Positions 53,460-63,466 of a stretch of DNA of 64,000 nt are shown in pieces. The DNA is taken from contig NC_011894.1 of assembly GCF_000022085.1 (NCBI RefSeq), forward strand, positions 2,259,501-2,323,500, given 5' to 3'. Under the pieces are notes generated by a model that saw only the letters and a list, made by a program, of their open reading frames with translations, made no database searches and was not told the DNA's origin. Positions within the stretch are counted from its first letter, which is position 1. Every line of letters begins with the position of its first letter. The translations under genes and the position numbers were made by a program. The stretch comes from Methylobacterium nodulans ORS 2060. Its GTDB lineage: Bacteria; Pseudomonadota; Alphaproteobacteria; Rhizobiales; Beijerinckiaceae.

Positions 53460-53750
53460 TCAGTGCAGGGGCCGTGCCGGTCCGGCGGGCCGGGTCTCCA
53501 TCCGGTCGAGCTGCCGGAGCGCCTCGAGGATGGCATCGACGGAGACCGGAGAGGCTGTTCCCGGCAGGTGCCGCAAGCCCGGGTCCGAATCGACGGCGTG
53601 GGCATCGGAGGCCCAGTCCGCCAGGATGGCGCGCTTCTCCGGCGGGGTCAGATGAGGCGCCGCCAGGACCGCGGCGGGATCGGCGAAGGCCCATGCGAGG
53701 CCGGCCGTCTCCGCTTGTGTCGTGTCGCTGCGCGTGAGGTTCGGATGCAT
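53460..53750 (-). CDS. Hsp20-linked small-domain protein (paralogue 1)
   Basis: The 96-residue protein has the pattern FADPAAVLAAPHLTPPEKRAIL-x2-WASDA then SVDAILEALRQLDRME. The same pattern (P-x-x-VF-x-x-P-x-EV, then EKR-x-IL-x-x-W-x-x-D, and a closing E-A-L-x-x-LDR) occurs in two other proteins of the window, both behind Hsp20 genes. It follows the hsp20 stop by 16 bp on the same strand, so it is cotranscribed. The role is unknown. The helical, charged make-up suggests a small adaptor or chaperone-partner protein. Confidence 0.8.
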   Translation of the reverse strand: MHPNLTRSDTTQAETAGLAWAFADPAAVLAAPHLTPPEKRAILADWASDAHAVDSDPGLRHLPGTASPVSVDAILEALRQLDRMETRPAGPARPLH

Positions 53751-53766
53751 CTCGCCGCCTCGCTCC

Positions 53767-54231
53767 TCACGCGGCCTCGGCGCGGCCTTCGATCCGGGCC
53801 GGGGCTGGCGACCCGGCGCCGATCGGGATGCGGCGCGGCTTCAGCGCCTCCGGCACCTCGCGCACGAGATCGATCACCAGGAGGCCGTGATCGAGGCTGG
53901 CGCCGGTGACGGAGACGTGATCGGCGAGGTTGAAGGTCTGGCGGAAGCTGCGCCCGGCGATGCCGCGGTGCAGGAACTGTCGGCTCTCGTCGGACTCGTT
54001 CTTCTGGCCGGTGACGAGGAGCGTGGTTCCGGTTTGCGTCAGCGTGATCTCGTCCGGGCCGAACCCGGCCACCGCCATGGTGATCCGGTAGCTTTCCGCG
54101 GCGGTCTTCTCGATGTTGTAGGGCGGCCAGCCGGTCATCGGCTCGACCCGGCTCGTCTGCTCCATCAGGTCGAGCAGGCGGTCGAACCCGACCGTCAGGC
54201 GGTACAGGGGGGCGATGTCGGTGGTCCTCAT
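53767..54231 (-). CDS. Small heat-shock protein Hsp20 (IbpA type)
   Basis: This 154-residue alpha-crystallin-domain chaperone has the class A rhizobial pattern: APLYRLTVGFDRLLDLME, GWPPYNIEKTAAESYRITMAVAGF and FLHRGIAGRSFRQTFNLADHV, ending with PRRIPIGAG. It holds unfolding proteins in heat stress. I chose the ATG at 54231, eight bases after GGAGG, because the paralogue at 60448-60921 has the same spacing. A ROSE-like thermometer precedes it, and a small-domain gene follows. Confidence 0.95.
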   Translation of the reverse strand: MRTTDIAPLYRLTVGFDRLLDLMEQTSRVEPMTGWPPYNIEKTAAESYRITMAVAGFGPDEITLTQTGTTLLVTGQKNESDESRQFLHRGIAGRSFRQTFNLADHVSVTGASLDHGLLVIDLVREVPEALKPRRIPIGAGSPAPARIEGRAEAA

Positions 54232-54290
54232 CATCACATCCTCCGGATGAGCAACGTGAATCCAAGGTGCGCCGGGATCCGTCCGGCGCC
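54232..54290 (-). promoter_or_regulatory. ROSE-like RNA thermometer in the hsp20 leader (copy 1)
   Basis: On the transcript the leader has a GC-rich hairpin (GGCGCCGG-acggatc-CCGGCGC) and then TTGCTCATCCGGAGGATGTG before the start. In ROSE elements the conserved U-U/C-G-C-U word pairs with the Shine-Dalgarno bases and melts with heat. Here TTGCTC faces GGAGGA across a short loop. The second hsp20 leader (60922-61006) has the same words, TTGCTCAC and GGAGGATGTG. Confidence 0.75.
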
Positions 54291-54507
54291 GCGAGCCTCC
54301 CGGAGGCCTCGCGCGCGCATAACGCGGCAGAGCTTCGCCGGTTCCGCGGCGCCCTGCGCGTTTTCGCGACCGCGCGGCGGGCGCGGCCGCGCGCCAGAGC
54401 GGCATCCGTTCACGGTGGAACGGATCCTGCTCTAGCTTTTTGATTTTGCCGCATTTTCTGCGACGAACCGGCATCCACTTCGTCGGAAAATGCTCTATAG
54501 ACTAGGC

Positions 54508-56646: not shown

Positions 56647-56723
56647 GGCGGAGTAGCTCAGCTGGTTAGAGCAGAGGAATCATAATCCTTGTGTCGGGGG
56701 TTCGAGTCCCTCCTCCGCTACCA
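56647..56723 (+). tRNA. tRNA-Met (CAT anticodon)
   Basis: A 77-base cloverleaf is present. The acceptor stem GGCGGAG pairs with CTCCGCT (G1-U72 wobble) and is followed by A and an encoded CCA. The D arm is GCTC-AGCTGGTTA-GAGC, the anticodon loop is ATCATAA (CAT) on the stem GAGGA/TCCTT, and the T arm is GGGGG-TTCGAGT-CCCTC. The acceptor-stem start is as in elongator tRNA-Met of alphaproteobacteria. Its 3' half also encodes, on the other strand, the last residues of the recombinase fragment. Confidence 0.93.
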
Positions 56724-57162
56724 CAGATCTCCCACTAAGGCCGTCGGATCGCGCTTCACTCACCAGCGCTGACAGACGGCCTTCCACCTCAACTTCGATC
56801 CCGCGGCGGGGCTGTCCCGGTAGAACGGTGACGCTCTTGATCAGGCCGCGGAAGCTCGCGATGAGGCGCCGGCTGGCCTCATCCTCGCCCCGGGCGTAGT
56901 CGCTCAGCGTGCCAGCGAGATCGCGGACCTGATTAAGGTAGCCCGCGACGACGTTGCTCTCGATAGTGAGGAGGCGGCCGGCATCGGCGAGGTGCGCGAG
57001 TTCGGCTTCCAGGTTCGCCCGCTCCGCCTTGATCACGGGCAGCCGCGCCGCGGCATCGGCCTCGGTGATGAAGCCTTTGACGTAGCCGCTCATCAGCCGG
57101 TCGTGTTCGGCGGAAAGCGCCTCCAGGCGGGCCTCGATGCGGCCACGGCCTGCTGGCCGCTC
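56680..57162 (-). pseudogene. C-terminal remnant of a large serine recombinase overlapping the tRNA
   Basis: The frame reads RLEALSAEHDRLMSGYVKGF and AARLPVIKAERANLEAELAHL (coiled coil), then RGLIKSVTVLPGQ and IEVEVEGRLSALV, and ends with VVAEEGLEPPTQGL. This is the C-terminal part of a large serine integrase. The final 14 residues are read from the antisense of the tRNA-Met 3' half, as in integrases whose attachment site is the tRNA. An in-frame TAA cuts the frame at its upstream end, and the catalytic domain with its serine is missing. Confidence 0.8.
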
Positions 57163-58604: not shown

Positions 58605-59351
58605 TCAGGCTCGCAGGCCAGACCGTAGCCGTTCCTCACCGTCGGTGCGCGTGACGATGATGAGCCGAGTACGCTCGGCGCGGTCGAGTGCTGCCAGTGC
58701 CTCCGTCACCTCGTCCAGCTGTGAGGGCTCCCCGCCAGCCATCGCCTCGTCGGCGGCCACCTCCAGCAGCCACGCGTCCCAGGCCCAGCGCCGCAGCACC
58801 TCGCGCTTCTCGGACAATAACAGGCTCGGATCATGCAACACTTCAGCCGGCGAGCCGAACACCGCGGCCGGGTTGACCAGCGCCCGCTCGAAGTCGGGAC
58901 GGCGCTCGACGATCGCCCGGCCATAGCTGGCATCCATCCACGTCAGCGCCGTGGCGTAGAGCTGCCCAGCGGTGTCGCTGTACTCACGATTGCTCGGCAG
59001 CTTCGCAGCGCAGCCGACCGGGACGGCGCACCCGTCGAGCCGGTAGCACAGGCCCTGCCGCTCGGCGTACGCCACCGCGTCCTCGCGTGACGCGAACCGG
59101 AGCTCGACCTGCGTGGCCAGGGTGTCGTCCCCGGCCGTCCAGCCCATCAGCGGCTCGATCTCGGGCGCGGTGTGTCGCTCGAAGCGCAGCACCCACTCGC
59201 CGTCGCGCGCCCGCCCGGAAGTGGTGACCGGGCGCTGGCGGCGCGAGATGCGCACCTGTGTGCCCGGCGGCCAGGACGGCGGCGGGACGATGGGCAGCGT
59301 ACATCCCGAGTTGTGTCCGATGCCGGGGGTGGAAGCGAAGCTGATCGACAT
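58605..59351 (-). CDS. Fusion of NDUFS4-like domain and Hsp20-linked small domain (paralogue 3)
   Basis: The 248-residue protein has two domains. Residues of about 25-105 match the ETC complex I subunit conserved region (NDUFS4 type): SGRARDGEWVLRFERHTAPE, PLMGWTAGDDTLATQVELRF and DAVAYAERQGLCYRL. Residues of about 150-228 carry the small domain of its neighbours: NPAAVFGSPAEVLHDP, SEKREVLRRWAWDAWLLEVA and LDEVTEALAALDRAE. It is the last gene of a minus-strand hsp20 operon, 28 bp after paralogue 2. A true complex I role is doubtful because of the location. The fusion suggests a stress-specific partner. Confidence 0.8.
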   Translation of the reverse strand: MSISFASTPGIGHNSGCTLPIVPPPSWPPGTQVRISRRQRPVTTSGRARDGEWVLRFERHTAPEIEPLMGWTAGDDTLATQVELRFASREDAVAYAERQGLCYRLDGCAVPVGCAAKLPSNREYSDTAGQLYATALTWMDASYGRAIVERRPDFERALVNPAAVFGSPAEVLHDPSLLLSEKREVLRRWAWDAWLLEVAADEAMAGGEPSQLDEVTEALAALDRAERTRLIIVTRTDGEERLRSGLRA

Positions 59352-59379: not shown

Positions 59380-59760
59380 CTATTGCATCCGAGTGCCCTT
59401 GCGTCCGCGGGGGCGCCGGCGCAGGCTCTCGACGGCCGAGAGGTACTCGCCCGCTGCCAGGGGATCGAACCGCGACAAGGCGGCGATTACCGCGTCTACG
59501 CGCGAGTGGGACGGTGATCCGGGGACGGCCTTGCACGCGACCTGCTCGGCTACGAGCTCGTCACGCACCCACGACAGCAGGATGGCCCGCTTCTCCTGGT
59601 GCGTGAACCAGGGATGCTGGACCACCTCCTCCGGACTTCTGAACACGCCCAGCGGGTCGACGAGCGCGTCCACGAACGACGGCTCCGACGGACCCGGGGC
59701 TTCTATCTCGGGCGAGAACGGGCGCTCAGCAACGGACGCTTCGGCTCTCTGCAGCTCCAT
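59380..59760 (-). CDS. Hsp20-linked small-domain protein (paralogue 2)
   Basis: The 126-residue protein has a Glu/Pro-rich N-terminal part and then the shared domain: VDPLGVFRSPEEVVQHPWFT, HQEKRAILLSWVRDELVAEQ and SRVDAVIAALSRFDPLAAGE. A basic tail (RRRPRGRKGTR) is specific to this copy. It starts 73 bp after the upstream hsp20 gene and ends 28 bp before the NDUFS4-like fusion gene, all on one strand. Confidence 0.78.
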   Translation of the reverse strand: MELQRAEASVAERPFSPEIEAPGPSEPSFVDALVDPLGVFRSPEEVVQHPWFTHQEKRAILLSWVRDELVAEQVACKAVPGSPSHSRVDAVIAALSRFDPLAAGEYLSAVESLRRRPRGRKGTRMQ

Positions 59761-59833: not shown

Positions 59834-60349
59834 TCAGTGCTGGGTCGTGCCCTGGCCGTTGACCGGGATGCGCTTGGCGCGCTCCTGCGCCTTGGCCGAT
59901 TTCGGCAGGGTCACGGTGAGCACCCCGTTCTTGAACACGGCCTGGGCCTTGTCGTCCTCGACCGGGTAGGGCAGCGCGATCACCCGCTCGAAGCGGCCGT
60001 AGGTGCGCTCACTGAAGCCGCGCTCCTTGTCCTCGGTCTCGGCCTTCTTCTCGCCCCGCAGGGTCAGGGTGTCCTCGTCCACCAGGACCTCGACATCCTT
60101 GTCCTCCAGGCCGGGAAGCTCGGCGGAGACGCGCACCTCCTTGTCGGTGGCGCTGACCTCGACACTCGGCCAGGACGGCAGCGGGCTCAGCAGCGAGGGC
60201 ATACCCGTCTCGAAGCGGCTGAACACGTCGTCGAACAGCCGGTTCATCTCACGATGCAGGGTGAGGAACGGGCTCACCTCGGAGCCCGACATCGTTGCGG
60301 GGGCCGTCGTGCGGCCCCGGCCCCAGGGGATCAGGTCTCTTACGGCCAT
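59834..60349 (-). CDS. Small heat-shock protein Hsp20 (second class)
   Basis: The 171-residue protein has an alpha-crystallin domain: WPSVEVSATDKEVRVSAELP, VLVDEDTLTLRGEKKAE, ERTYGRFERVIALPYPVE and FKNGVLTVTLPKSAKA. It differs from the other two Hsp20s and resembles the class typified by HSP18-like proteins, with an N-terminal segment carrying LTLHREMNRLFDDVFSRFE. The start at MAVRDLIPWGRG has GGAGAGAG upstream. It lies 98 bp after the first hsp20 gene of the operon. Confidence 0.95.
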   Translation of the reverse strand: MAVRDLIPWGRGRTTAPATMSGSEVSPFLTLHREMNRLFDDVFSRFETGMPSLLSPLPSWPSVEVSATDKEVRVSAELPGLEDKDVEVLVDEDTLTLRGEKKAETEDKERGFSERTYGRFERVIALPYPVEDDKAQAVFKNGVLTVTLPKSAKAQERAKRIPVNGQGTTQH

Positions 60350-60447
60350 CGTCTCTCTCCATGTCTGGGTCAAGCAGCCGCCGACCGGGGGCCTCCCCAT
60401 GGCCAGTGGCCTGCCATGTCAGTGCGTCAGTTGCTCCGGTCTGCGCC

Positions 60448-60921
60448 TCAGGCCGCCTTGGCCTCGATCTGCGCGGGCGTGTCGTCCTGCCCGAGCGCCG
60501 GGGTGCCCGCTTGGATCGCGATGCGCCGTGGCTTGAGGGCCTCCGGCACCTCGCGCTTGAGGTCGATCATCAGCAGGCCGTTCTCCAGCCCCGCCCCCGT
60601 GACCTTCACGTGCTCGGCGAGGTTGAAGGTCTGGCGGAAGGCGCGTCCGGCGATGCCGCGGTGCAGGTACTGGCGCTCACCCTCGGCCTCCGCCTTCTTG
60701 CCGGCGACGAGGAGGGTGGTGTCGGTCTGCGTCAGCTCGATCTCGTCCGGGGTGAAGCCCGCCACCGCCATGGTGATGCGGTACTGGTCCTCGCCCATCT
60801 TCTCGATGTCGTAGGGCGGCCAGCCGGCCAGCGGCTCGACATCTGTGACCTGGTCGAGCATGTCGAACAATCGGTCGAACCCGACCGTCGAGCGATAGAG
60901 GGGAGAGAGGTCGTATCTCAT
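60448..60921 (-). CDS. Small heat-shock protein Hsp20 (IbpA type, second copy)
   Basis: The 157-residue paralogue of the protein encoded at 53767-54231 shares SPLYRSTVGFDRLFDML, GWPPYDIEKMGEDQYRITM, LHRGIAGRAFRQTFNLAEHV and EVPEALKPRRI. It is the first gene of the minus-strand heat-shock operon. The ATG is eight bases after GGAGG and follows a ROSE-like leader of about 85 nt and an RpoH-type promoter. Confidence 0.95.
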   Translation of the reverse strand: MRYDLSPLYRSTVGFDRLFDMLDQVTDVEPLAGWPPYDIEKMGEDQYRITMAVAGFTPDEIELTQTDTTLLVAGKKAEAEGERQYLHRGIAGRAFRQTFNLAEHVKVTGAGLENGLLMIDLKREVPEALKPRRIAIQAGTPALGQDDTPAQIEAKAA

Positions 60922-61006
60922 AGCCACATCCTCCAGTGAGCAACATGGATATGAGAGCGCCGGACACCCGCCGGCGCCCGAAGTGCCAAGCTGTTCAGCC
61001 TTGGCG
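60922..61006 (-). promoter_or_regulatory. ROSE-like RNA thermometer in the hsp20 leader (copy 2)
   Basis: The leader of about 85 nt folds into a GC hairpin (GCGCCGG-cgggtgt-CCGGCGC) and carries TTGCTCACTGGAGGATGTG close to the start. TTGCTC can mask the GGAGGA ribosome-binding site, as in ROSE thermometers of rhizobia. Length and layout match copy 1, and both precede IbpA-type hsp20 genes. Confidence 0.78.
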
Positions 61007-61012
61007 AGCAAA

Positions 61013-61041
61013 GAGATAGTAACGGTGCTCTCCCGTTCAAG
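61013..61041 (-). promoter_or_regulatory. RpoH (sigma-32) type promoter of the hsp20 operon
   Basis: On the minus strand CTTGAA is followed after 17 bases by TATCTC. CTTGAA is the standard -35 of alphaproteobacterial heat-shock promoters. The predicted start, about seven bases further, leaves a leader of about 85 nt that contains the ROSE-like structure. It should drive hsp20-hsp20-small domain-fusion. Confidence 0.7.
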
Positions 61042-62941: not shown

Positions 62942-63148
62942 TCAGACCCGGCGCACGATCACCTCGTACTTTGCCGTCGTTCCGCCCTGGACCTCGACCC
63001 GCCCGACCCGAACCTCGGAAGATTTGGGATCGATCTGTCTGGCTTCCTGAACGATCCCTGCCAGGTACTGCCGCAAGTGGAAATCCATCTGGTCTCCGTT
63101 CTCGACGCTATAGCGCGCGCCCTCGTGCATCTTTTCCTGCTCTGACAT
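62942..63148 (-). CDS. Small protein of an unnamed family (pair member 2)
   Basis: The 68-residue protein reads YSVENGDQMDFHLRQYLAGI, VQEARQIDPKSSEVRVGRVE and YEVIVRRV. It aligns along most of its length with the neighbour encoded at 63245-63466, sharing the pattern MDF/LDF, EA-x-Q, PK, EV-x-VGRVEV and YEV-x-VRRV. AGGAGG lies eight bases before the ATG. The two form a tandem pair with a 96-bp gap. A short strand-helix-strand fold is likely. The function is unknown. Confidence 0.7.
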   Translation of the reverse strand: MSEQEKMHEGARYSVENGDQMDFHLRQYLAGIVQEARQIDPKSSEVRVGRVEVQGGTTAKYEVIVRRV

Positions 63149-63244: not shown

Positions 63245-63466
63245 CTACGCCACCCGGCGCACGGTGACCTCGTACACTCCGGCGTGTGGGCCTCTGACTT
63301 CGACCCGCCCGACCACGACCTCGTAAGCTTTCGGGGCAAGCTGGATAGCCTCGTGAACGACGGACGTAAGTGCGCGCCTTTGTTGGAAATCCAACTGCTC
63401 CGCGTTCATAACAGAGTAGTACGACAGCGTACCCATCTTCGCTGGTCCTTTGTTCTCTTTCGACAT
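63245..63466 (-). CDS. Small protein of an unnamed family (pair member 1)
   Basis: The 73-residue protein starts MSKENKGPAKMGTLSYYSVM and continues LDFQQRRALTSVVHEAIQLA and PKAYEVVVGRVEVRGP, ending VYEVTVRRVA. It is the closest relative in the window of the next gene on the same strand. GGGAGGGAG precedes the ATG. It has no cysteine and no membrane segment, so it is probably cytoplasmic. Confidence 0.7.
   Translation of the reverse strand: MSKENKGPAKMGTLSYYSVMNAEQLDFQQRRALTSVVHEAIQLAPKAYEVVVGRVEVRGPHAGVYEVTVRRVA

Follow-up and report, generated by a model that had tools for sequence, protein, structure and literature searches.

An unnamed domain encoded beside hsp20 genes in heat-shock clusters of Methylobacterium nodulans and other Alphaproteobacteria

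In many bacteria that live in soil or in association with plants, an unnamed protein domain of about 70 residues accompanies hsp20 genes. Small heat-shock proteins (sHSPs) are widespread, and to our knowledge few dedicated bacterial protein partners of them have been recognized; a recurrent unnamed family in clusters with the same RNA thermometers is a direct candidate for such a partner. We put at roughly one in two the probability that this predicted helical domain serves the alphaproteobacterial Hsp20/GroESL heat-shock cluster as an accessory, with the Hsp20 holdase as its probable working partner. The case is built on homology, on linkage to hsp20 or GroESL that recurs, mostly on the same strand, across several subfamilies, and on ROSE or CIRCE-like elements at many of the clusters.

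Two hsp20 clusters and three copies of the domain

The window, the whole 64-kb stretch of DNA that was analysed, lies on a contig of 7,772,460 bases in a genome of 8.84 Mb and carries two hsp20 clusters on its minus strand, about 5 kb apart as a sequence-only reading of the same DNA had placed them. Cluster 1 runs from a ROSE-like element through an IbpA-like hsp20 to gene A, and cluster 2 from an RpoH-like promoter match and a ROSE element through an IbpA-like hsp20 and a second hsp20 to genes B and C. The features are as follows.

53460..53750, minus strand: protein A, 96 aa, which carries the domain in its type I form (open reading frame and BLASTP homology)
53767..54234, minus strand: IbpA-like hsp20 5' of A (PF00011, E 1.4e-14; reading frame open to 54474)
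54225..54313, minus strand: ROSE-like RNA thermometer of cluster 1 (RF00435 matched over the whole model, positions 1-94, at 36.6 bits and E 0.0016)
58605..59351, minus strand: protein C, 248 aa, with an NDUFS4-like domain at about 59034-59258 and, C-terminal to it, the unnamed domain at 58668-58904
59380..59760, minus strand: protein B, 126 aa, which carries the domain in its type III form (core 59437-59691)
59834..60349, minus strand: second hsp20 of cluster 2, directly 5' of B (PF00011, E 9.3e-22; start set by a ribosome-binding site; reading frame open to 60400)
60448..60921, minus strand: IbpA-like hsp20, first gene of cluster 2 (PF00011, E 9.4e-17; IbpA-like, E 4.8e-46; start set by the ROSE match; reading frame open to 61011)
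60915..61005, minus strand: ROSE RNA thermometer over the cluster 2 start (RF00435, 66.5 bits, E 2e-8)
61014..61041, minus strand: RpoH-like promoter match, CTTGAA-N16-CTATCT (regular-expression scan; a consensus match only)

The neighbours were correctly called hsp20, with PF00011 found in the frames 53767-54474, 59834-60400 and 60448-61011; the start at 54234 in cluster 1 was chosen from the ROSE match and a ribosome-binding site. All three domain genes had been described as lying directly downstream of an hsp20 gene, which holds for A (gap of 16 nt) and B (73 nt) and fails for C, which instead follows B after 28 nt. The reading frames of A, B and C are all open on the minus strand at these coordinates, and no minus-strand terminator-like site was found inside either cluster. 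A terminator-like stem at 61021-61037 overlaps the RpoH-like match at 61014-61041. Elsewhere in the window, two tandem small minus-strand frames (62942-63148 and 63245-63466) look alike by eye and have no Pfam match. At 56647-57093, a tRNA-Met gene is overlapped by a minus-strand frame that by eye resembles the tail of a recombinase; this may be an island junction preceding cluster 2.

A, B and the C-terminal part of C are, by sequence comparison, homologous copies of one domain of about 70 residues. BLASTP aligned A with B at 38% identity over 61 aa (E 8e-10), B with C at 40% over 73 aa (E 2e-11) and A with C at 38% over 66 aa (E 2e-8), and in 1000 shuffles of each pair the observed score was never equalled (z of 11.3, 16.2 and 10.6, respectively). 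The relationship first proposed from the letters thus stands, with E values of 2e-11 to 2e-8. The motif proposed with it survives as a family pattern though not in every letter, with A reading FADPAAV in place of VFxxPxEV, C reading EKREVL in place of EKRxIL, and B ending in FDP rather than LDR. The description as a small domain fits the shared region of about 70 residues; protein C itself is not small, its N-terminal half being an NDUS4 domain (PF04800, E 1e-19, 71 bits against a gathering cut-off of 31.9, residues 32-106).

The shared domain proved to be unnamed, as had been supposed. A and B had no Pfam match at E values up to 1 and C matched NDUS4 only; in NCBIfam, A and C had no match, and the one model found by B was OqxA, at 16 bits where the cut-off is 835. 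Six type II members gave no Pfam match above cut-off, and the Hsp20/alpha-crystallin model PF00011 did not match A, B or C at E values up to 1. Protein search with B recovered 98 relatives besides itself and A as a single query five, and of 8,000 candidates scored with an A-like profile at least 3,710 matched; the 120 profile relatives listed all lacked both a functional name and any precomputed Pfam domain. One relative of B (P0003) is labelled F0F1 ATP synthase delta subunit by one source. In our searches of the open-licence literature we found no published account of the domain family, of a domain gene or of the fusion to an NDUFS4-like subunit; the neighbourhood of ROSE hsp20 operons is already known.

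Short proteins, high GC content and open reading frames overlapping on opposite strands are circumstances in which low-complexity similarity, GC-rich frames and accidental neighbours might mimic a family. Such a chance origin is ruled out for practical purposes by the shuffle scores (z 10.6 to 16.2), the 3,710 profile relatives and a gene order kept across several families.

The model of A has four helices (residues 9-19, 25-30, 36-55 and 71-85; mean pLDDT 70), and in the AlphaFold model of C the region of the unnamed domain is helical as well (residues 151-248, block means of 79 to 96). The conserved residues K39, L43, W46 and D49 of A sit on its longest predicted helix. Among solved folds, the predicted domain fold matched none with confidence. 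The domain is thus predicted to be helical in both models whereas Hsp20 is a beta protein, and what joins the two families is that their genes adjoin and are probably co-expressed.

Linkage to hsp20 from the genus to plasmids

Linkage was examined in 41 genomes (M. nodulans and 40 relatives) with a domain profile. The hsp20 profile of the scripted analyses, built in-house from 13 sequences, recovered hsp20 in 7/7 hsp20 loci of M. nodulans. The 41 genomes gave 40 domain matches, in 23 of them, and 131 hsp20 matches. On the same strand and at most 2.5 kb downstream of hsp20 lay 37 of the 40 domain matches, two of these being pieces of one broken gene. The random expectation of such placement is about 0.08% per place, although p-values on the linkage come out too small because the places are related to each other. 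The three exceptions were a type II copy in M. nodulans, another type II match, in G026, and one match in G022 whose start is 144 bases away from a contig end. That M. nodulans type II copy (C1:54729-54977; L006, L073) sits on a 458 kb contig that holds none of the genome's seven hsp20 matches. Among 25 genomes of the genus in this set, hsp20 genes numbered at least three in all 21 that have the domain and exactly two in all four that lack it (Fisher p 8e-5). At an E cut-off of 1e-8, no type I match came from G482 or G526, two additional members of the genus. A third hsp20 locus of M. nodulans (L002, C7:2453287-2454047) carries a ROSE element of 67 bits and a B-like copy split over two different frames, which on its sequence is a decayed partner gene. 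B-type context was available at three loci, all by hsp20: one intact and one broken in M. nodulans, and one in Phenylobacterium (L020).

An even draw of 249 Hyphomicrobiales gave type I profile matches at 26 places in 20 genomes, 23 of which were refetched with about 5 kb on each side (two places in M. nodulans and G008 being left out). At these A-type loci hsp20 was present in 17/23, and hsp20 or GroESL in 19/23. The nearest detected same-strand upstream feature was hsp20 in 15/23, followed in four of these 15 by DegP. Neither hsp20 nor GroESL was seen at L230, L236, L237 and L239, two of which lie at contig ends. Another sample comprised the best 80 of 176 genome-contig loci, found by one short pattern and mostly from Mesorhizobium; at least two of its loci (L099, L109) are probably the same as L218 and L219 of the 23. 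In these best 80 of 176, hsp20 was present in 68 (46/53 where flanks were long), hsp20 or GroEL lay within 5 kb in 80/80, GroEL was present in 66 and Usg in 61, following A in 60. The commonest order (34/80) was GroEL-GroES divergent from A-Usg-Hsp20-Hsp20, continued at some loci by C, an omega-like protein and SPW. In this Mesorhizobium layout A lies upstream of Usg, and the upstream space is common to A and groES. Repeated linkage to hsp20, first suspected from two loci, was borne out in these three samples (37/40 in the 41 genomes, 17/23, and 68 of the best 80).

Type I copies also occur on plasmids, 135 of the 219 plasmid records being typed conjugative. Nine of 20 listed plasmid matches were opened, hand-chosen across the range of listed matches: five had hsp20, one had GroESL and Usg only, and three had neither. 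In Agrobacterium fabrum, plasmid pAt carries ROSE, Hsp20, DUF982 and the type I gene, in that order. On two Agrobacterium plasmids (L213, L214) the type I gene that follows ROSE-Hsp20-DUF982 lies beside the repair genes Ku and LigD.

A draw across the class found domain matches in at least 20 of 289 genomes, with up to 15 candidates scored per genome and misses therefore likely. Twenty places outside the genus were refetched with up to 8 kb on each side (shorter flanks in L190, L194, L200, L201 and L206) and comprised 3 type I and 17 type II loci. One of the three type I loci had hsp20, on the opposite strand and about 2 kb off. A-type genes away from hsp20 accordingly numbered 12/80, 6/23, 2/3 of the class-wide type I loci and 4/9 of the plasmid loci (one of the four with GroESL).

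Thermometers, operators and possible shared regulation

The ROSE element of cluster 2, next to the hsp20 start, passes the RF00435 gathering cut-off (66.5 versus 45 bits). That of cluster 1 falls below it (36.6 versus 45 bits) over the full length of the model and is termed only ROSE-like. Elements at or above gathering were present at 12/15 loci scanned (L020, L024 and L078 were below) and at 5/5 plasmid loci, which had been picked for having hsp20. CIRCE-like operators (at most 4/18 mismatches, no shuffle control) lay within 700 bases upstream of the domain at 62/77 A-type loci, mostly in the space common to the A-type gene and groES; because this region also serves GroESL, their presence is no proof of control over A. 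Cluster 2 alone showed the RpoH-like pattern, which was absent from cluster 1, from the third hsp20 locus of M. nodulans and from all 77 A-type upstream regions.

In thermometer family, IbpA-like first gene and neighbours, these clusters resemble the hsp20 operons under ROSE control in rhizobia and Agrobacterium (hspAT1; mll2387-mll2386 of M. loti). The excerpts of published accounts of such operons treat the sHSPs, GroEL, Usg and the thermometer, and do not mention the domain gene. Among the top heat-induced genes given for M. loti are the sHSPs mll2386 and mll2387 (6.61 and 6.32), GroEL mlr2394 (5.79) and Usg msl2390 (5.54), with the groES beside mlr2394 listed as heat-unaltered (PMC3989490). 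The A-type gene of M. loti is expected by synteny between msl2390 and mlr2393; the 50 M. loti genes shown in that paper included none identified as A-type. The excerpted account of hspAT1 reports it as heat-induced (PMC2885654). From its position on pAt, the hsp20 of locus L214 is probably hspAT1.

We propose that the domain genes would be made together with Hsp20 upon heating, and that the domain could serve as a small accessory to the Hsp20 holdase by way of its conserved helix EKRxILxxWxxD. This helix may bind Hsp20 oligomers or Hsp20-client assemblies and help to hold them, or the domain may pass clients on to GroESL, DnaK or the DegP protease. Since GroESL, Usg, DegP and SPW are recurrent neighbours too, the domain might partner the heat-shock cluster as a whole and not Hsp20 alone. 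Our searches of the open-licence literature yielded no binding, mutant or expression data on any domain copy.

The same recurrence of GroESL, Usg, DegP and SPW makes shared regulation without contact the strongest rival, quite possible though less probable than an accessory role. The domain protein would then be a heat-shock protein with a target of its own, such as a membrane or respiratory complex, and its adjacency to hsp20 would come from common ROSE, CIRCE or RpoH control together with co-travel on mobile heat-resistance islands. NDUFS4-like genes recur alongside these neighbours, and across the 80 loci GroEL (66) and Usg (61) come close to hsp20 (68). Many type I copies lie on conjugative-typed plasmids (135/219 records), some A-type genes are accompanied by GroESL and Usg with no hsp20 (L218, L219, L211), and C bears the domain on a complex I-like subunit. 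Against this, it is hsp20, not GroESL, that is common to the genus, a Bradyrhizobium locus (L157), two Agrobacterium plasmids and most Mesorhizobium loci, and hsp20 has been reached by two separate branches of the domain.

Branches of the domain and the NDUFS4 fusion

In an unrooted tree of 74 domain sequences, with few columns and several long branches, types I and III stood apart from types II and IV. This split suggests at least two probable entries of the domain into hsp20 clusters, one for A and B and one for C. Two entries, if the tree holds, point to a functional tie over a single inherited accident. The sequence-only reading had looked to homologues lying mostly near hsp20, which, in the samples drawn, is so for A-like, NDUFS4-fused and B-like copies (three loci only for the last) and not for type II, where hsp20 was found at 0/17 loci in other Alphaproteobacteria. 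The linkage is therefore a trait of particular subfamilies, and the fold itself need not bind Hsp20.

Type II copies could instead represent an ancestral general-stress or housekeeping domain whose older, non-chaperone function the hsp20-linked copies retain. Their absence from the vicinity of hsp20 (0/17) and their varied neighbours suit this idea; the 20 neighbour proteins tested, from 12 loci of which two were type I, included an RsmB-type methyltransferase at two loci and, at one, an ECF-type sigma factor encoded about 1 kb upstream. We nevertheless regard it as unlikely, since type II is strongly diverged on a branch separate from A and B, and no type II neighbour is constant enough to suggest a function.

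Like the complex I accessory subunit NDUFS4 (PF04800), protein C has the NDUS4 domain at its N-terminus, and its family profile matches the solved chain 8qby_Q, 'ETC complex I subunit' (E 7e-26); C differs in adding the unnamed domain C-terminally and in its place within hsp20 clusters. Most of the NDUFS4-like matches listed in the 249 Hyphomicrobiales span the NDUFS4 part only. Among these matches, seven of the 249 genomes have the fusion at full length or nearly so, and in six of the seven it adjoins an hsp20 pair (one of the six in two frames). The seventh locus (L164) has no hsp20 in its 1.5 kb flanks. On six opened plasmids with the fusion, an hsp20 pair lies beside it in all four annotated records; the other two carry no annotation.

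The fusion would connect heat-shock chaperones with respiratory complex I in a concrete and testable way. One speculative extension, to which we give little weight, is that the domain is a portable sHSP docking module: A and B would tune Hsp20 assemblies, and the tail of C on a heat-shock NDUFS4 would bring Hsp20 protection to complex I during heat stress.

In rhizobial heat-shock clusters, a small omega-like protein is encoded 3' of the NDUFS4 fusion (L018:8667-8990 and L019:8646-8966). The L018 copy matched Rpb6 below cut-off, and two fusion records annotate this protein as RNA polymerase omega.
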